Of a stretch of 44,859 nucleotides of DNA, positions 199-11,589 are shown one piece after another. Source of the stretch: a virus; IMG/VR virus record IMGVR_UViG_3300032086_003527, positions 1 through 44,859 of that record. One strand, given 5' to 3'. A program made the translations under genes and the position numbers. The notes below the pieces were generated by a model, which had not been told where the DNA came from, did not search any database, and was given only the letters and a program-made list of their open reading frames with translations. Position 1 is the stretch's first letter. Every line of letters begins with the position of its first letter.

Positions 199-1572
199 TC
201 ATGCTGGATAATCCCAATCTGTTATAAAATCTGTTTTATGTTGTGGACCCCACCCACCAGTGTAGATGTAAGGGACAGTACGAATTGGGCAAGAATCACC
301 AGTACACAGAAGGTCATCTACAATCCTCCAAGATTCCATTACTTCATCAGAATGAACAAAGTGTGACTGGTCTCCCTCAATAGCATCGTAAAGAAGCTTC
401 TCATAACCATCAACACCTAACCAATCAGGATACCTGTGAGTCAGTGTTGCTGGTTCAACTCCATCACCCATTCCAGGTGTTTTGATATCCATCATAATAT
501 CAAGGTGTGCATGTGGTTGAAGCCTCATCACAATTCTGTCATTTACCTCACCATCAAATAGTTTTTGAGGTGGAGATTTAAATTTAATTACAACTTCCAC
601 ACAACCAAATGGCATACACTTGCCAGTTAGGACGCGAAAAGGAACTCCCTCCCAACGCCAGTTATCACAGTATAGAGTACCAGCAACGAAGGTAGGAGTG
701 TTACTGTTAGGATCAACACCCTCCTCATTACGATAGCCGTGGTATTGTCCAAGGATAATGTCCTCCCCTAAACGAGTTGCAGCAAGAACTTTAGTTTTCT
801 CACGACGAATCTCTCTTGCATCCATCTTGCAAGGAGGTTCCATAGCAACTAATGCAAGAACCTGAAGAATATGGTTCTGTAACATATCACGAACCTGACC
901 AGAGGTTTCATAGTATTGAGCACGACCTTCACAACTGATAGTTTCAGTTGCAAAGATTTGAATCTCTTCTACGTATTGCCTGTTCCAAAGTGGTTCCAGA
1001 AGAATATTACTAAAACGGGTGGCAAGGATATTATTAACAGTATCTTTACCAAGATAATGGTCAATGCGATATACCTGTTTCTCCCGTAGATGTCGGCTAA
1101 CCACAGACTGTAAACGATCAGCAGATTTATAATCGTATCCAAAGGGTTTTTCGATAACCACCCGAGAGAGTTCTGGGTGTTCAAGGAGTCCTGCTGCTTT
1201 GAGATTGATGATGGCACTCTCATATCGTTCTGGGGGAACAGATAAAAAGTAAGTTGTATCGTCTAAATCTGGAAGTTTTTCTAGTGACTCTGGATTAGAG
1301 AGATCTGCAGAAATATAATCCAGATGATTCAAAAACTCTTCTGGATAATCTCCAAGAGTTTTTTTCCATTCAGAAGGAGAAGGAGATCTTCTCGCACAAC
1401 CAGTGATTAAAAAACCAGCTGGTAGAAGACCCTTCTCCCAAAGTTTATGTAGTGCTGGAATGAGTTTTCGTTTGCATAGATCTCCAGTAGCACCGAAGAT
1501 AACTATGCCTCTGGTAAGGGGTTCAGTGTGCTGTTCCATTTCCATCGTAGTCGTCTGAGTCATAGTAGTCAT
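199..1572 (-). CDS. zwf: glucose-6-phosphate 1-dehydrogenase
   Basis: This enzyme oxidises glucose 6-phosphate with NADP+ in the first step of the oxidative pentose phosphate pathway. Numbered from the start chosen here, the nucleotide-binding motif GATGDLCKRK lies near residue 27, EKPFG near 141 and the active-site signature RIDHYLGK near 169. The length, about 457 aa, fits the family. I chose ATG 1572 because AAAAGGTG sits 4 nt upstream. The frame is also open to an ATG at 1641 that overlaps the gnd stop as TGATG, which would add 23 residues unlike known G6PDH N-termini. The gene follows gnd and the oxidase gene in the same direction. Carriage of zwf and gnd by marine cyanophages is well documented. 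The likely role, inferred from that, is NADPH and pentose supply for phage nucleotide synthesis. Confidence 0.95.
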   Translation of the reverse strand: MTTMTQTTTMEMEQHTEPLTRGIVIFGATGDLCKRKLIPALHKLWEKGLLPAGFLITGCARRSPSPSEWKKTLGDYPEEFLNHLDYISADLSNPESLEKLPDLDDTTYFLSVPPERYESAIINLKAAGLLEHPELSRVVIEKPFGYDYKSADRLQSVVSRHLREKQVYRIDHYLGKDTVNNILATRFSNILLEPLWNRQYVEEIQIFATETISCEGRAQYYETSGQVRDMLQNHILQVLALVAMEPPCKMDAREIRREKTKVLAATRLGEDIILGQYHGYRNEEGVDPNSNTPTFVAGTLYCDNWRWEGVPFRVLTGKCMPFGCVEVVIKFKSPPQKLFDGEVNDRIVMRLQPHAHLDIMMDIKTPGMGDGVEPATLTHRYPDWLGVDGYEKLLYDAIEGDQSHFVHSDEVMESWRIVDDLLCTGDSCPIRTVPYIYTGGWGPQHKTDFITDWDYPA

Positions 1573-1640
1573 TTTCACCTTTTCGTATCCCGAAATAGAT
1601 GGTGGCACATACAAAAGGTAGTGCTGCCCAAAGTAAGACA

Positions 1641-2660
1641 TCAGCGAACGTCATGACCACCAAACATAGCTCTCATTCCATTCAAAACCTTGGCTGCGAA
1701 AGTACCAAGACGGCGCGACTCAAAACGTGAATACAACGCGCTGCTGATAACAGGAGCGGGTACGCCAAGATCCACAGCAGCGTGAACTGTCCAACGACCT
1801 TCACCAGAGTCTGATACTCCCCCATCGAACTTGCTAAGCTCACTATCGCGGCGTAATACATCAGCGGTAAGATCAAGCAACCAACTACCAACCACGCTAC
1901 CGCGACGCCATAACTCAGCCACTTCAGCAACATCAATATCGTATTGATAGTCTGCTGGATTTTCCATCGGAGCAACCTCAGCATCGCCCTCCTTAACATA
2001 AGCTGACCCAGCATTAGCTTCATGCAGGATATTAAATCCTTCTGCGTATGCTTGCATGATTCCATACTCAACACCATTATGTACCATTTTTACAAAGTGA
2101 CCTGCTCCAGCTGGACCACAATGTAACCAACCATGTTCGGCAGATGTCTCATGGCTGAGTGGGTTAGTTCTGTTAACGGCCCCGATACCTGGGGCAAGGG
2201 CGCGGAAGATAGGAGCGCAGACGGATATTGCATGATTTGCACCACCAACCATAAGACAGTATCCACGCTCCAGACCATAAACTCCACCAGAAGTACCGCA
2301 GTCAAGATATTGGATGCCAAGTTTAGCCAACCTTTCTGCCCTGCGGCGAGAGTCTTTAAAATTGGAATTGCCATGATCAATAATAATATCTCCTTCACCA
2401 CAAAATTGTAGTAACTCATTGAGTGTGTCCTCCACAGTTTCAGCGGGTACTACCATCATATAGATGCCAGGACCTTTTTCTCCAACTACTTGAACAAGGC
2501 TTTGAATAGAAGTGGTGCATCCACTGATATAACCCTTCTCAAATTGTTCTTCAGCCTTTTTATAATTTTTGCGATATCCATAAACTGTGATACCTGATTT
2601 GATCATACGACGAGACATACCCTCGCCCATTCTACCTAAACCAATTAATCCTACTCTCAT
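1641..2660 (-). CDS. gnd: 6-phosphogluconate dehydrogenase (decarboxylating), short form
   Basis: This enzyme converts 6-phosphogluconate to ribulose 5-phosphate and CO2 with NAD(P)H formation. The N-terminal Rossmann motif GLGRMG is at residues 7-12. The substrate region GTSGGVYGLERGY is at 122-134, and GHFVKMVHNGVEYG at 187-200 holds the catalytic-type Lys191 and Asn195. At 339 aa it is the short bacterial form, not the roughly 470-aa form. The start overlaps the oxidase stop as ATGA and its stop overlaps the upstream-most zwf ATG as TGATG, so the three genes are probably translationally coupled. Coenzyme preference cannot be settled by eye. Confidence 0.95.
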   Translation of the reverse strand: MRVGLIGLGRMGEGMSRRMIKSGITVYGYRKNYKKAEEQFEKGYISGCTTSIQSLVQVVGEKGPGIYMMVVPAETVEDTLNELLQFCGEGDIIIDHGNSNFKDSRRRAERLAKLGIQYLDCGTSGGVYGLERGYCLMVGGANHAISVCAPIFRALAPGIGAVNRTNPLSHETSAEHGWLHCGPAGAGHFVKMVHNGVEYGIMQAYAEGFNILHEANAGSAYVKEGDAEVAPMENPADYQYDIDVAEVAELWRRGSVVGSWLLDLTADVLRRDSELSKFDGGVSDSGEGRWTVHAAVDLGVPAPVISSALYSRFESRRLGTFAAKVLNGMRAMFGGHDVR

Positions 2661-4012: not shown

Positions 4013-5368
4013 TTAACGTGTTTCTCGCCACTGAATAGTATTGAAGACATCTGTTGTTGTGTTAGTGTCTAAGTTATTCACAATGACAGCAAAAATATTA
4101 CTATCATCTGAATCAATGTTTTGTGCAATGTAAGATCTTCTAGCCGCAGTTGGATTGAATGCCACAGTAGAGGATGCTTGCTGACCCGATGGATTGTTTG
4201 CAGCAATCAAAGATGCCTGTCTCAAATCTCCACCAGTTGTTGTGAAGTTAGTCCCTATCGTAACATTATACTCAGCTGCCGAATCATCATCCGCGCTTAC
4301 CCAACTTCCACCAGTAATGTTGTTGTTACTTGGCAATCTCCAAATTTCAATTCTGCAATTTGTAGAATCACTCAAGCATTCAATATCAGTTAGCCTTACA
4401 GTTGTTCTATTAGGAATTCCCTTAAATGTATTCTTACAACGAAGAGCCATAACACACTGTCTTGCAGTTGCTCCACCAGAGTTGGAGAATGATATTGGTC
4501 CATTAAATGCACCAAACTCAACACCACTCTCAACATATCCACCTTCACTCAACACAGTGGAGCAAATCTGTTCCATTGATGTGATACCAACAGCAGTGCC
4601 AGTATTTGCAACCTCACAACGAATTGGAAGTGAAGGTAAACTCCAATAGACATGATTTAGATTATTTGCATGTTGAAACTCATGGAAATAGAAATTGGTT
4701 CCGTCCAGAACTAATCCACATCTAAGTCTTCCAACTCCTAACCACTGAAAGTCTGTGATGAACAGTTGAGTTTTTGTCCAGTCAACGGATACTCCAGACG
4801 AACCAGTTCCATCTAAGGGATCCAAACTCCAGTCAGATTGATTTACAACAGTATCAACTGCGGTTCCTGTACTATACGATCTTCTTACAATAGAAACAGT
4901 ACCATCTCCAGTCTGTTGAAGAAACACTCCATTTCTATCATCAAAGTATCCAAGTTTTTTAGTTGTATTTTCTCTATAATCAATAAAGTTAAAACTTGCC
5001 ATGGCAAACTGAGATTTACCTGGCATATAATGGTGATACATTCTAGATTGGTGTATCACTTGTGCAGTTGATGCAACACCAACCACAAGTCCAATAGATG
5101 CAGTGTTTGCGTTTGTAACGGTTGTGGAACCAGCACCGATTGTTTTGGTTAATAACTCAACTTCTTCACCATAAATGTGGGAATAGTCTGCAAGTGTAAA
5201 CGGTTCAGATACACGCATCCTACCAAACGCATCATATCCTCCACCACCTACTCCAGTAGCAACTCCACAGTTTCCAATGTTGCCGTATCTATCGGCACAC
5301 ATGAAAACTTCATGAAGAGTTCTCTCTTGGTTGAGATAGTCTTGTGTATTCTTATTCCACTGAGCCAT
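4013..5368 (-). CDS. putative virion structural protein, 451 aa
   Basis: A Gly-, Thr- and Ser-rich, beta-predicted protein without signal peptide or membrane segment. The N-terminal part contains GGGGYDAFGRMRVSEPF and later YHHYMPGKSQFAMASFNF, which looks like a conserved phage structural core. The C-terminal half carries IEIWRLPSNNNITGG and repeated Thr/Asn-rich strands, as in a jelly-roll or fibre domain. It ends an apparent operon with the 688-, 205- and 101-aa genes, 3 nt after the last of them. No ribosome-binding site is obvious, so translation may be coupled. I cannot say whether it belongs to head or tail; a decoration or head-fibre role is possible from the neighbours. Confidence 0.7.
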   Translation of the reverse strand: MAQWNKNTQDYLNQERTLHEVFMCADRYGNIGNCGVATGVGGGGYDAFGRMRVSEPFTLADYSHIYGEEVELLTKTIGAGSTTVTNANTASIGLVVGVASTAQVIHQSRMYHHYMPGKSQFAMASFNFIDYRENTTKKLGYFDDRNGVFLQQTGDGTVSIVRRSYSTGTAVDTVVNQSDWSLDPLDGTGSSGVSVDWTKTQLFITDFQWLGVGRLRCGLVLDGTNFYFHEFQHANNLNHVYWSLPSLPIRCEVANTGTAVGITSMEQICSTVLSEGGYVESGVEFGAFNGPISFSNSGGATARQCVMALRCKNTFKGIPNRTTVRLTDIECLSDSTNCRIEIWRLPSNNNITGGSWVSADDDSAAEYNVTIGTNFTTTGGDLRQASLIAANNPSGQQASSTVAFNPTAARRSYIAQNIDSDDSNIFAVIVNNLDTNTTTDVFNTIQWRETR

Positions 5369-5371
5369 GAA

Positions 5372-5677
5372 TTATACCCAATCTAATTTTGCAGGATGAT
5401 AACGTTTTGCGCTTTTAATATTTAGCTCACTCTCAACATTGGGATAAATTTGTTGGACCAACGCACCAGGATATTTGGATTGGAGACTTTCGGCCAATTC
5501 GTCTTTCGAAGTCATTTTACCTCTCAGTTCAAGACGATAAAGACTTCCTTCCCAGACAATATCTGCAAAGTAAGATTCCTGTGCAGGTTCTGGTTGGGAA
5601 CCCCCTACGTTGAGGGTTCCATTGAAATCACCATTAATGGTGATACTTTCGGATAAAAATTGATTGAAAGATTTCAT
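5372..5677 (-). CDS. putative internal head protein with capsid-targeting-like N-terminus
   Basis: The ATG at 5677 was chosen because GGAGGA lies about 6 nt upstream; the longer frame to 5692 adds five residues and lacks that site. The protein (101 aa) begins MKSFNQFLSE, position for position like the 10-residue capsid-targeting peptide of T4 internal proteins (MKTYQEFIAE), which the gp21 protease cuts after Glu10. Here L-S-E at 8-10 fits the (L/I)xE cleavage rule. The rest contains WEGSLYRLELRG and YPGALVQQIYP, which match the N-terminal domain of the 688-aa protein two genes upstream. A role as a packaged internal or scaffold-core protein is inference from the targeting peptide. Confidence 0.68.
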   Translation of the reverse strand: MKSFNQFLSESITINGDFNGTLNVGGSQPEPAQESYFADIVWEGSLYRLELRGKMTSKDELAESLQSKYPGALVQQIYPNVESELNIKSAKRYHPAKLDWV

Positions 5678-5678
5678 A

Positions 5679-6296
5679 TCAGACTCCTCCACGACCCATC
5701 AAATCGCCAGGTGAAATAGGACCACCTGAAGCACCAAGGCCAACACCATATGGTGTTGCTGTCATACCCCGAGATGCAAATCCACCAGTTCCACCTCTTC
5801 TACTACGAGAAGTATTACGAGTGGTACGTCTTCTAGTATTTGATGGAGTTACTGTTCCACCAAAAGTTCTTGCAGCTGCAGATGGTGACATTTTGATTTG
5901 TTGTTGACCAAGAACAGATCTTCCACCATATTTATCAATGTATCTTTGCGGTAAAGTTGATCTATCTAATGTTCCTCGTGGATTTGTTTGGGAGCCTGTT
6001 CCTGGTACACCTTTCCTTGCGCCAGGATTTGTGTATGTATTTCCTGTTTGTGGATTAGTTGTACTAAATGCTGGTCTACTACCACTAATTTTCAGGTTAC
6101 CTTTGTAGGGTCTTCCTCGATAAACGGGAACCTGTTGTCTTCCAGCAGCACCAGATCTAACAGTTGTTCTCCCACCAAAAGGATTTAACATACCTCTGCT
6201 CATTATATTTCTAAATGCCTGTAGAGGATTTTCATCCAATTGGTTTGATTCGTAAACGGCGTATGCCTCTTGTACAAATTGATTGTATGTCTTCAT
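5679..6296 (-). CDS. putative internal head protein, Gly/Arg/Ser-rich, capsid-targeting-like N-terminus
   Basis: A 205-aa protein starting MKTYNQFVQE, close to the T4 internal-protein targeting peptide MKTYQEFIAE. A second candidate gp21 cleavage site is L-D-E at residues 20-22 (SNQLDE, followed by NPLQ). The remainder is low-complexity and strongly basic, with many Gly, Arg, Thr and Ser (for example TRRRTTRNTSRSRRGG), as expected for a DNA-associated protein packed with the genome. It starts 2 nt beyond the 688-aa gene's stop (TGATCATG) and is followed by the 101-aa gene. A DNA-binding internal protein is the best guess; the sequence shows only the composition and the N-terminus. Confidence 0.65.
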   Translation of the reverse strand: MKTYNQFVQEAYAVYESNQLDENPLQAFRNIMSRGMLNPFGGRTTVRSGAAGRQQVPVYRGRPYKGNLKISGSRPAFSTTNPQTGNTYTNPGARKGVPGTGSQTNPRGTLDRSTLPQRYIDKYGGRSVLGQQQIKMSPSAAARTFGGTVTPSNTRRRTTRNTSRSRRGGTGGFASRGMTATPYGVGLGASGGPISPGDLMGRGGV

Positions 6297-6298
6297 GA

Positions 6299-8365
6299 TC
6301 AGCAGTTCCAGGCGCGGAGGGACTTATTGATTCTGCTATCGGGATCGTTAGCAGTTTTAGCTGAAGTCAGTTTCTTTTTCATACCTTTCATTCTTGCACA
6401 GAATGATGCACGTCTCTTGTTACCGACTTTCTTTGAAGGAGCTTTTAGATCAGAACCAGGATTCTCTCTTTCGTAGGACTTACGTCCTTTTTCATTGAGA
6501 CCACCAGACTCAGACTTTCCTGCTTTCCTTGTCCAGGCTGCTGACTCGTTAGTGCTCTTTTTTGGAGTAAAGTAACCGTGCTTCGGCATAGTGGCAGCAC
6601 CACGACCGAGTTCTTTATTAACTCTCTTTACCTTTTCCGCACTCTGCCTATTGATTTTATCAACTACATCCATTGCCTTTTGGATGATGTTGAACTCATC
6701 AATCTGCTCACCTTCTGGTTCAAAAGAATTTTTAACATTAAACCTCATAGGAGGGTTGCCAGCGTAAACTTTGCGTCCCTTCTCATCAGTCCAATTTGCA
6801 GTATTGACCTGCTTTGATGAAAGCCTTTCCTGATTTCTTCTGCCCCTATCTATCACTTGTTGCATGGTTTGATTATCTTGTTGCATACGAGCATAACCAC
6901 CAGCAGATTTAAAATAACCTCTTTCTCTTCTAGAAAGTTGGCTTCCTCTCAATTCAAGAGACCTTCTAAGGTCAGGTCTTCCCTGATATACATCAGAAGG
7001 AACAGTCATATCAGTACCACTTCTTTGACGATATGTTGCTTGTTCAACCATATCACCTTCTGGCTCATAATCATTCATCTGAGTGGTTGTTTTCTTTCTA
7101 CTTTGGATAGATTTTCTAATAGCATTGATTCTATTTGCAATACTATCAAGTTCTTCTACTTCTTTTTCATCATCATCCTTGATTCGATCCCTGACTGTAT
7201 AACCACCAAGTTTCTTATCTTTGAGTTTATCGTACTCTTCCTCATCGAGTCTTTCTACTGTTTCTACTTCTTCTTTCTTGACACAGTTTGGATATCTCTT
7301 ACCAAACATGGTCTTCATACCTTTCTTCTCATAACCCTTCCAACACTTTTCAAAGAGAGTGTCGTAGTATTCATCATTGAACTCGTAGGTATAATCTTCT
7401 TTCTTAGAGTTACCCCAGTTGGCAGCACCAACTTTGCGACACTTAACTAGTGCTCCAGATGCATATGCAGAAGGCCATACAGAATAACGAGACTTAACTT
7501 TATGGTAGCAAGCATCTTTCTTACCACTACCCTTACCTGGTTTGTCCTTTGCTTCGTTAACTTCCATTTCCTCCTTCCTAGTTTTTCTGTCGGTTTTTAC
7601 CATGGTTGGAGCAGCAGCTCCAGATTTTTTTTGTTGTCCTGGATCTTCTCTTCTTTTTGCAGCTGCAGCAGCAAGTCTTTCTTTCTTAGACATACTAGCT
7701 CTTTTTGCAGAAGATACACACTTAGGAATACCCTCACCAGGTTTATCACTTGCACAGGAATCACCTGTTACAACATTGACCCAACCTTTCTTACCATCTT
7801 TTGATTTGGACTTACCAAACCAATCACGAAGGCCTTCTTCGGATACAGTTTCTTCAGTATAAGAAGAAGCTGCGTCCATATTGTGATCAGTGTCGGTAAT
7901 TTTGGCTTGAACCCATGCAGGAAGATTCTTTTCTTTAGAACCTAACTTTTTCTTGAGTTTTTTGGCATTCTCAATGGTCTTATCTAATTGAGAATGAGCC
8001 ATGGAAACTTCATGGTCCTTTTCTTCTGCCATTTTTTTACGACCTTGACAATGAGCACGTTGCGAAAAACCTTTGGGGTTATCACAGTCAATAGACTTTT
8101 TATACTTTGCGGACCAACCCTCTTTCGCAACACGAATGGTTGGTTTAGTGGGATCAGTGGTAGTAGGAGAAACAGTCTGTACAACTGCATTTGGATAAAT
8201 GCCCTGTACTTGTTTTGTTACTTCTTGTCTGGTTGGAAACTTAGCCCCAGGAAAGAACATCTGAAGTCTGTAAAGTTGACCTCTCCAAAGTAAATTAACT
8301 ACAATGGTTTGGCCCACTTCGACATAACGTTCGATTTTCTCAGAGAGAAGTCCCATTGTATCCAC
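6299..8365 (-). CDS. large lysine-rich multidomain virion/head protein
   Basis: The frame starts with GTG at 8365 (AAAAAGG 7 nt upstream) or ATG at 8356 (MGLLSEKIERY). Residues about 20-75 form a small domain (LLWRGQLYRLQMFFPG, YPNAVVQTVSP) paralogous to the 101-aa protein. Further on are Cys-containing patches (DCDNPKGFSQRAHCQGRKK; GLRDWFGKSKSKDGKKGW; CYHKVKSRYSVWPSAYASG; NCVKKEE) and a conserved C-terminus (FCARMKGMKKKLTSAKTA, ending SLRAWNC). I recall this C-terminus from domains of unknown function in marine phage structural proteins. A motif EPEG(D/E) with following acidic residues occurs twice. No membrane segment. The high Lys content suggests association with packaged DNA or the prohead core, but this is inference. 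A divergent late-type promoter lies just upstream. Confidence 0.72.
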   Translation of the reverse strand: MDTMGLLSEKIERYVEVGQTIVVNLLWRGQLYRLQMFFPGAKFPTRQEVTKQVQGIYPNAVVQTVSPTTTDPTKPTIRVAKEGWSAKYKKSIDCDNPKGFSQRAHCQGRKKMAEEKDHEVSMAHSQLDKTIENAKKLKKKLGSKEKNLPAWVQAKITDTDHNMDAASSYTEETVSEEGLRDWFGKSKSKDGKKGWVNVVTGDSCASDKPGEGIPKCVSSAKRASMSKKERLAAAAAKRREDPGQQKKSGAAAPTMVKTDRKTRKEEMEVNEAKDKPGKGSGKKDACYHKVKSRYSVWPSAYASGALVKCRKVGAANWGNSKKEDYTYEFNDEYYDTLFEKCWKGYEKKGMKTMFGKRYPNCVKKEEVETVERLDEEEYDKLKDKKLGGYTVRDRIKDDDEKEVEELDSIANRINAIRKSIQSRKKTTTQMNDYEPEGDMVEQATYRQRSGTDMTVPSDVYQGRPDLRRSLELRGSQLSRRERGYFKSAGGYARMQQDNQTMQQVIDRGRRNQERLSSKQVNTANWTDEKGRKVYAGNPPMRFNVKNSFEPEGEQIDEFNIIQKAMDVVDKINRQSAEKVKRVNKELGRGAATMPKHGYFTPKKSTNESAAWTRKAGKSESGGLNEKGRKSYERENPGSDLKAPSKKVGNKRRASFCARMKGMKKKLTSAKTANDPDSRINKSLRAWNC

Positions 8366-9350: not shown

Positions 9351-10045
9351 TTGCATTACTATTTGCATCTCCAGTCAACGCAGAAACTGTTGGTGGCGTT
9401 AGTGCAACCGCAGCTCCTGTGGCTAATTCCAGTGGATCTGTTACCAATCAAGCTATCCAAGTTTTACAAGGTCCATATATCACGAATACCTATGGCGGTG
9501 GTATCCAGTGTCAAGGGCCAACTCTAAACATTACTCCTTTCATCACGGGTAGTGGTTCAATTCAAAAACCATATGAACCATATTTTGATTCTCCAGTCTA
9601 TGACATGAGAGATATCAATGATGATGGAGCACCTGATAATCCAGGATCAATTTTATACAAAGTTCCCACAAGAACAGGTCAGAAAGATAATTACAATCTT
9701 TCATTAGGTGTTAGTGCTACTTGGAGTATTCCACAAGATAGGAAACTTCAGAATCAATGTAAAGAAGCTGCATCAACTCAAATTGCACTACAAAAACAAC
9801 TTACTGCAAATAAACGTTTAGATTTTGAGATTGCAAGACTTAAAAATTGCGGTGAATTATTAAAACAAGGAATTCAATTTCATCCCAAAAGTCCATACTA
9901 TTCAGTATGTGCAGATGTGGTGGTTCATAACGTTAACTATATCAAACCACATAGACATACTATTCCTTCCCCTTCAACTTCCGAATCGCGTGTGAGCGAA
10001 TTCGCTGATGATCTCGGCGGTCCTTTACAGACTCAACGACGATAG
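9185..10045 (+). CDS. putative exported protein 3, start uncertain
   Basis: The frame encodes an obvious signal-peptide core (YLPAVIALLFASPVNA, cut before ETVGG) followed by a mature domain of about 220 aa. The domain contains GGGIQCQGPTLNITPF, a conserved-looking core (YKVPTRTGQKDNYNLSLG) and a helical region (EAASTQIALQKQLTANKRLD). Four cysteines in the mature part could form disulfides outside the cytoplasm. The only ATG in frame is at 9185, which would put 51 non-signal residues in front, all read over the previous gene. No GTG, TTG or CTG occurs between that ATG and the hydrophobic core. True initiation is therefore probably near 9300-9340 through a non-standard start, or the frame is entered by a -1 shift from gene 2. 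The 3' end overlaps the opposite-strand 221-aa gene by 86 nt. Confidence 0.65.
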   Translation: MDRCDKKTNVYANNTRECVPIHRNISRSWFKQSDDNSKGNRGYQRNRHYKYLPAVIALLFASPVNAETVGGVSATAAPVANSSGSVTNQAIQVLQGPYITNTYGGGIQCQGPTLNITPFITGSGSIQKPYEPYFDSPVYDMRDINDDGAPDNPGSILYKVPTRTGQKDNYNLSLGVSATWSIPQDRKLQNQCKEAASTQIALQKQLTANKRLDFEIARLKNCGELLKQGIQFHPKSPYYSVCADVVVHNVNYIKPHRHTIPSPSTSESRVSEFADDLGGPLQTQRR

Positions 10046-10894: not shown

Positions 10895-11180
10895 TTTGTT
10901 CCTCCTTTTTACCAATCGGCGGGGCTTTCTTTGGAGCACTACCATTTTTAGCGGGGCTCAGTCCAAAAGCGGCCAAAGAGCCACTAAAAACTGAAGCGAT
11001 AAACGTCGGGTCAAAGTCTAAGATTTTCTGACCATTTGGCAAACGAACATAACTAAAAGTTAAGAGAGACGCAGACCAAATAAGAACGACTACTTTTACC
11101 AAATTACCAAGAACTTCACTTTTGTCTTCATGATCATGATCCTCACTTTCCTTTTTAATTTCGGGGTTAGAATCAGCCAT
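10878..11180 (-). CDS. small protein with two membrane segments, unknown
   Basis: A 100-aa protein with a highly charged N-terminus (NPEIKKESEDHDHEDKSE), a hydrophobic segment at about residues 25-44 (LGNLVKVVVLIWSASLLTF), a second weaker one at about 60-76 (FIASVFSGSLAAFGLS), and a basic tail (PAKNGSAPKKAPPIGKKEEQ). Two spans with charged termini and small size are compatible with a holin-like protein, but nothing specific proves it. It overlaps the end of the gp16 gene by 8 nt. It occupies the position where T4-like genomes usually place the large terminase gene. Confidence 0.62.
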   Translation of the reverse strand: MADSNPEIKKESEDHDHEDKSEVLGNLVKVVVLIWSASLLTFSYVRLPNGQKILDFDPTFIASVFSGSLAAFGLSPAKNGSAPKKAPPIGKKEEQNAKVN

Positions 11181-11589
11181 CTAATTTTCCTTTTTTAAGA
11201 AGTTTTTGCAACTCAGCGGTTGACCCTACGAATAGTGCGTTGGTTACATTATTAGGACCCTTTTCTTTGGGTTCCTCAATGTCTCTTAATTTTTTCTGTA
11301 GGTCTAATAATTTATCAGTGGCATCAGCCACACTTTTAATTATCTGACCAGTAACTTCATAGGCTCTGGCAGACCCCGTTTCTTGTGAGATCTCCATAAT
11401 CCCATCGATGGCCTCTTGACCTTTTTCGATGAGAGAATAAAGTTGACCACGGGTATATTCGTAATCTCTCTTTAAGTCTGTTTTTTCTTCTTTTCCAACG
11501 ATTTCAACATCGCGCTTAATAGGGGTAACCTCACCGCATCCATCTGTCGCATTAATGTCAAGAGCATCCCCGATTGGATCGTTCGCCAT
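11173..11589 (-). CDS. 16: terminase small subunit, T4 gp16 homologue
   Basis: T4 gp16 binds DNA and stimulates the gp17 packaging motor. The recognition rests on the C-terminal motif here, NNVTNALFVGSTAELQKLL, which lines up with T4 gp16 (NIQNATVFMGSPTELMDEI), and on a central helical pair (DYEYTRGQLYSLIEKGQEAI and AYEVTGQIIKSVADATDKLL) similar to the T4 coiled-coil core. It is 138 aa against 164 in T4. The start has TGAGGA upstream. The gene follows gp15 in T4 order, but the large subunit gene 17 is not next to it and not in this window. Confidence 0.85.
   Translation of the reverse strand: MANDPIGDALDINATDGCGEVTPIKRDVEIVGKEEKTDLKRDYEYTRGQLYSLIEKGQEAIDGIMEISQETGSARAYEVTGQIIKSVADATDKLLDLQKKLRDIEEPKEKGPNNVTNALFVGSTAELQKLLKKGKLDG

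Follow-up and report, generated by a model that had tools for sequence, protein, structure and literature searches.

Two adjacent late genes in a fragment of a T4-like cyanophage genome probably both encode cargo of the prohead core that is delivered by an N-terminal capsid-targeting sequence (CTS) and trimmed by a gp21-type protease, as judged from their sequences. The closest named relative of the fragment (the window; that is, the whole 44.9-kb stretch of DNA that was analyzed) is Synechococcus virus S-PRM1 (Makelovirus), with 95-99% DNA identity in the head-gene region. The minus strand of the window carries a compact run of late genes, which extends from the terminase small subunit through a 451-aa structural protein and includes several small genes. 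The relevant features are as follows.

11173-11589, minus strand: terminase small subunit
6299-8365, minus strand: 688-aa multi-module protein with a C-terminal DUF6321 (cyanophage T4-GC 119 type)
5679-6296, minus strand: 205-aa basic protein, headed by a putative CTS
6267-6296, minus strand: putative CTS of the 205-aa protein, MKTYNQFVQE (MKTYNQFVLE in S-PRM1)
6231-6239, minus strand: L-D-E at residues 20-22 of the 205-aa protein, predicted alternative cut site, conserved in S-PRM1
5372-5677, minus strand: 101-aa protein (phrog_1742), headed by a putative CTS
5648-5677, minus strand: putative CTS of the 101-aa protein, MKSFNQFLSE, with a predicted gp21-type cut after E10 (FLSE, followed by S)
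5441-5575, minus strand: beta-beta-alpha-beta domain, residues 35-79 of the 101-aa protein (AlphaFold2 pLDDT ~86-89 over residues 41-80)
4013-5368, minus strand: 451-aa virion structural protein (phrog_1645, by family match), operon neighbor of the 101-aa gene

The stop of the 688-aa gene and the start of the 205-aa gene are 2 bases apart, and a single base separates the stop of the 205-aa gene from the start of the 101-aa gene. A GTG start for the 101-aa gene, which would extend the protein by 5 residues, is unlikely because a Shine-Dalgarno sequence, GGAGG, lies just 5′ of the ATG and the starts of homologues agree with it. The 688-aa protein, whose true start is likely the ATG of MGLLSE (8356), has no N-terminal CTS; according to published virion mass spectrometry, its S-SCSM1 homologue is a virion protein. 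Two dehydrogenase genes that resemble zwf and gnd are found near the head genes (window 199-2660), as they are in S-PRM1.

In T4, the first ten residues of IPIII suffice as a CTS, and gp21 cuts after (L/I)xE; targeting depends on residues 4 and 7, and processing on residues 8 and 10 (reviewed in PMC9026906). The original prediction had pointed to two adjacent proteins with T4-like N-terminal decapeptides, and both are present on the minus strand (5677-5648 and 6296-6267), although the interval that it gave, 5640-6296, takes in all of the 205-aa gene but, of the 101-aa gene, just the start. A DNA pattern for MKx[YF]xxFxxE has two matches in the whole window, which are the starts of these two genes; the chance expectation is 0.02 per window, and none of 100 shuffles had two matches. 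As anticipated, the L-S-E of the 101-aa protein ends at residue 10 and fits (L/I)xE, and the 205-aa protein has an L-D-E at residues 20-22. The decapeptide of the 205-aa protein falls outside (L/I)xE at residue 10 because its position 8 is Val; the original prediction had made no such claim for it.

The 101-aa protein belongs to phrog_1742 over almost its entire length (E = 3e-38); this is a family label without a function, from which the protein does not differ in any apparent way. The original prediction had suggested a test of conservation in the first ten residues: M1, K2, F7, and E10 are invariant in all 93 distinct homologues, a set gathered in part by means of the motif itself. Position 4 is F or Y, so that both aromatic targeting positions are occupied throughout; position 8 is L or I in 89 of the 93 and M in the other 4, and positions 5 and 9 are variable. 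Mean entropy in these homologues is 0.51 over the first ten residues versus 1.05 over the folded domain. The motif is also kept in homologues found by whole-protein similarity (those of S-SKS1, S-SRM01, S-B43, Syn33, S-SCSM1, and S-T4). Beyond the decapeptide, the protein consists of a disordered linker (residues 11-34), the beta-beta-alpha-beta domain, and a conserved C-terminal tail, and its mature part is acidic (pI 5.0). The FLSE at the predicted cut consists of the same four residues as the predicted cut in the N-terminal region of the S-PRM1 major capsid protein (after RSFLSE, before APTNAVG). The decapeptide of the 101-aa protein thus has those features of a CTS that can be examined in sequence. 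We dropped the assignment of a function to the domain from its fold, as the matches are weak and tied: the T7 Gp2-like RNA polymerase inhibitor fold gives a VIA-align Z of 4.9 (49 residues, rmsd 2.4) and a Foldseek E of 0.17, while phi29 p6 gives a Z of 4.5.

The 205-aa protein shares no family with the 101-aa protein. It is basic (pI 11.6, 29 Lys+Arg) and rich in glycine (33 Gly), and it has no family match. Its S-PRM1 counterpart is 93.8% identical, and the family was met only in these two phages: a search of 50,697 phage records gave no further homologue, nor did one of viral contigs at the sensitivity used. The targeting residues Y4 and F7 are present both here and in S-PRM1. Because of V8, together with the R8 and Q8 of other CTS-like starts in S-PRM1, cleavage of the 205-aa protein at residue 10 may fail; the L-D-E at 20-22 is its only canonical (L/I)xE and may, from its sequence, serve as the cut site instead. 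The S-PRM1 starts in question are MKTFNQFREE, directly after the major capsid gene, MKTFQQFQED, and MKTFKQFQDL (loci L001:24696-25352, L002:13046-13339, and L002:5797-5982). Since they keep the aromatics and lack L/I at position 8, the proteins may be targeted yet uncut at residue 10.

To see how widely such starts recur, we scanned 2.9 million viral contigs for MKxFxQF[ILM]xE and found at least 120 matching stretches. Among the matches listed, 120 of 123 stand at the head of an open reading frame of at least 30 aa, mostly a few codons past a stop, and the residue after E10 (P1′) is A or S in 78 of 120. With the first ten residues removed, the listed reading frames fall into 52 mutually unrelated clusters. 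Among the matches listed, phrog_1742 has 34 members and the nucleotidyltransferases have 25; DUF6321, GNAT, and HNH proteins also occur, as do strongly basic proteins, a protein with a lytic transglycosylase fold, and one that weakly matches ADP-ribosyltransferases. Permuting the same codons left 11 matches versus at least 120, and one extra residue between the aromatics left 27, mostly away from gene starts. The raw count for a pattern that demands Glu at position 11 and leaves residue 10 free (at least 120) is uninformative as a negative control because most such matches also carry E10; examined at the free residue 10 instead, the pattern speaks for the motif, with Glu there in 83 of 107 among the matches listed. 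Each of the 12 records examined, which comprise 9 genome records of cyanophages or T4 and 3 viral contigs, has at least one motif start; in T4, the motif heads ipII, ipIII, and 61.1.

Several further occurrences were seen along the way. T4 gene 61.1 (54 aa, hypothetical; NC_000866 18966-19130) starts with MKTFKEFIKE and resembles a further T4 CTS protein. Four neighboring genes on the viral contig L218 start with MKTFKQFI[TSL]E and have unrelated bodies, possibly a cargo island. Many cyanophage proteins share a module of ~45 residues, A.RLGL.GDGHG.WYD..GEF.AKTV.G.LKF, shortly after the CTS; it is joined to NMNAT/cytidylyltransferases, an S-CREM2 protein annotated as Cas9, or kinases, or it stands alone (loci L248:7704-13331, L251:38819-40048, L099, L105, L108, L094, and L405:5422-5973). 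The DUF6321 gene of S-T4 (L090:4502-6001) looks like a fused cargo gene, given an internal CTS-like AKSFEQFIGE just ahead of DUF6321 and, elsewhere, a separate DUF6321 protein, S-SZBM1_192, that starts with MKTFKQYITE.

The original prediction had called for a search for the gp21 gene. No gp21-family protease is encoded in the 44.9-kb window, itself only a fragment of a genome, but the close relative S-PRM1 encodes one (Peptidase_S77), as do T4, Syn9, and S-CAM9. The protease is present in all three CTS contigs longer than 150 kb and in 7 of 15 CTS contigs longer than 30 kb, mostly fragments, versus one of six control contigs.

To relate the decapeptide to particle content, we set a strict motif, M..[FY]..[FYW][LIVMF].E, from T4 data and matched it by hand, from tables, to the annotated starts of S-CREM2, S-SCSM1, and S-SZBM1, three phages whose virions have been analyzed by mass spectrometry in published work (PMC10665884, PMC9602691, and PMC9146016); the denominators are gene counts in the papers and records. 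By the published detection lists, five of the eight strict-motif proteins are in virions versus 127 of 719 genes overall (Fisher, P = 0.006), and seven of ten when the near-variants S-CREM2 gp13 and S-SZBM1_140 are added (P = 3e−4); both values are descriptive and do not represent a blind test because several N-termini were seen before the motif scan, the second value even more so because its near-variants were picked after looking. The detected five are S-CREM2 gp6 (SAM hydrolase/lyase, MKDFDSFLEE), gp14 (kinase, MKRFDAFLTE), gp136 (the one of unknown function, MQTFSMFFSE), and gp154 (cytidylyltransferase, MKNFSSFLTE) and S-SCSM1_91 (NMNAT, MKSFLQFLKE); S-SCSM1_30, S-SZBM1_191, and S-SZBM1_192 are not among the proteins listed as detected in the published proteomes. 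A later check of a fourth phage, S-CRM01, fits: its kinase, which PMC10665884 reports from virions, starts with MISFDQFLSE and matches the S-CREM2 kinase at 32%. The suggested resemblance of the window decapeptides to a T4-type CTS is therefore upheld by position-specific conservation, by recurrence on unrelated proteins, by the gp21 of S-PRM1, and by enrichment among virion-detected proteins.

If the shared N-terminus were only a general feature of late-gene starts or of translation, and not an address label, its confinement to gene starts in every real occurrence would follow, and MK is a frequent beginning. However, the specificity at F4, F7, L/I8, and E10 is one of amino acids, encoded by varied codons, the shifted and permuted controls collapse, and translation signals leave both E10 and the A/S at P1′ unexplained; we therefore give this explanation almost no credence. 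It is also improbable that, the motif itself being real, the enzymes in virion proteomes are co-purified contaminants, a concern that the S-CREM2 authors themselves raise (PMC10665884) and under which packaging would be unproven for any cyanophage protein. According to the published lists, the motif is enriched among virion-detected proteins, and S-CREM2, S-SCSM1, S-SZBM1, and S-CRM01 have the same enzyme families in common.

A third explanation, tentative and yet the most serious of the alternatives, concerns the 101-aa protein, which could act in the core structure or in assembly, as T4 gp67/gp68 do; it would enter by its CTS and, once cut, would for the most part exit the head without being injected. 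Its family sits in a head-gene setting, the terS-terL interval, in several cyanophages, a position that equally suits the cargo reading. Its homologues SSCSM1_30 and SSZBM1_191, both small, are not among the proteins reported as detected in the S-SCSM1 and S-SZBM1 virions, and this counts against the cargo reading. Its domain is common to the adjoining DUF6321 virion protein: the 688-aa protein opens with the same beta-beta-alpha-beta domain and is matched by phrog_1742 (E = 1e-7), and Foldseek finds the domain again in DUF6321 virion proteins. Against such a role, the 101-aa protein has a single (L/I)xE site beyond the CTS, inside the folded domain, and its gene is lost in S-PRM1, whereas core proteins are usually needed. 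In one clean step (a deletion in S-PRM1 or an insertion in the window), S-PRM1 lacks window 4013-5648, and with it the body of the 101-aa gene and the 451-aa gene. What is left is a 27-codon stub, MKSFNQFLSDLDCVETSMKLYYATIKK (S-PRM1 9364-9447, locus L001), whose motif ends in ...FLSD; the protein is thus dispensable there.

The best reading of the T4 precedent and the sequence patterns remains that both window proteins are targeted and trimmed, most likely entering the prohead by the decapeptide tag. During head assembly, the decapeptide would bind the scaffold core via aromatic residues 4 and 7, and the protein would therefore be enclosed once the capsid shell closes. A gp21-family protease would then cut the 101-aa protein after Glu10 and the 205-aa protein after Glu10 or Glu22, which would free the mature parts ahead of DNA packaging. 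We suggest that the basic 205-aa protein most likely stays with the DNA and is delivered into the cell and that the acidic 101-aa protein is either a low-copy cargo or a core component partly lost at maturation; at least some cargo would be retained in the head for delivery.

The cyanophage decapeptides resemble MKTYQEFIAE, the CTS of T4 IPII/IPIII, in the aromatic residue at position 4, F7, L/I at position 8, E10, and A/S after the cut, and the setting is alike in the unrelated mature proteins, the gp21 gene of the close relative, and the T4-like head genes. They differ from it in that position 6 is usually Gln and position 4 usually Phe. T4 Ip1, Ip2, and Ip3 have only the N-terminal leader in common and block three different GmrSD nucleases, one per protein, as shown in E. 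coli only (PMC12373910). They are the model for the counter-defense role that the original prediction proposed, an idea that gains indirect support from the S-CREM2 SAM hydrolase/lyase, a CTS-bearing protein detected in virions. The cyanophage cargo, in contrast, is unrelated to T4 internal proteins and includes enzymes, and its cleavage and injection are predicted from sequence. The virion-associated NMNAT/cytidylyltransferase, APH-like kinase, and SAM hydrolase share the N-terminal decapeptide with the window proteins and, unlike them, have other mature parts; the available text of their papers describes no packaging signal. The literature that we searched held no report of a CTS in cyanophages, although one may still exist.

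The wider result would be that the cargo of cyanophages follows the CTS code. With moderate confidence, we propose that marine T4-like cyanophages, together with many of their uncultured relatives, have a single decapeptide code in common. The prohead core and gp21 would read this code, and it would bring a large, rapidly changing cargo set into the head for delivery at infection. Among the cargo would be nucleotidyltransferases and kinases, SAM lyase, GNAT and HNH proteins, possible ADP-ribosyltransferases, and basic DNA-associated proteins, with the window proteins as two of the cargoes and with several enzymes carrying the second, 45-residue module right after the code. Cyanophage proteomics keeps meeting enzymes in purified particles, and the proteomics papers, in their available text, do not decide between cargo and contaminant. 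With a ten-residue tag as a predictor of loading, this question would become testable gene by gene, and the genomes of uncultured marine phages could be searched in a simple way for early-acting proteins that are injected, candidate counter-defense proteins among them.
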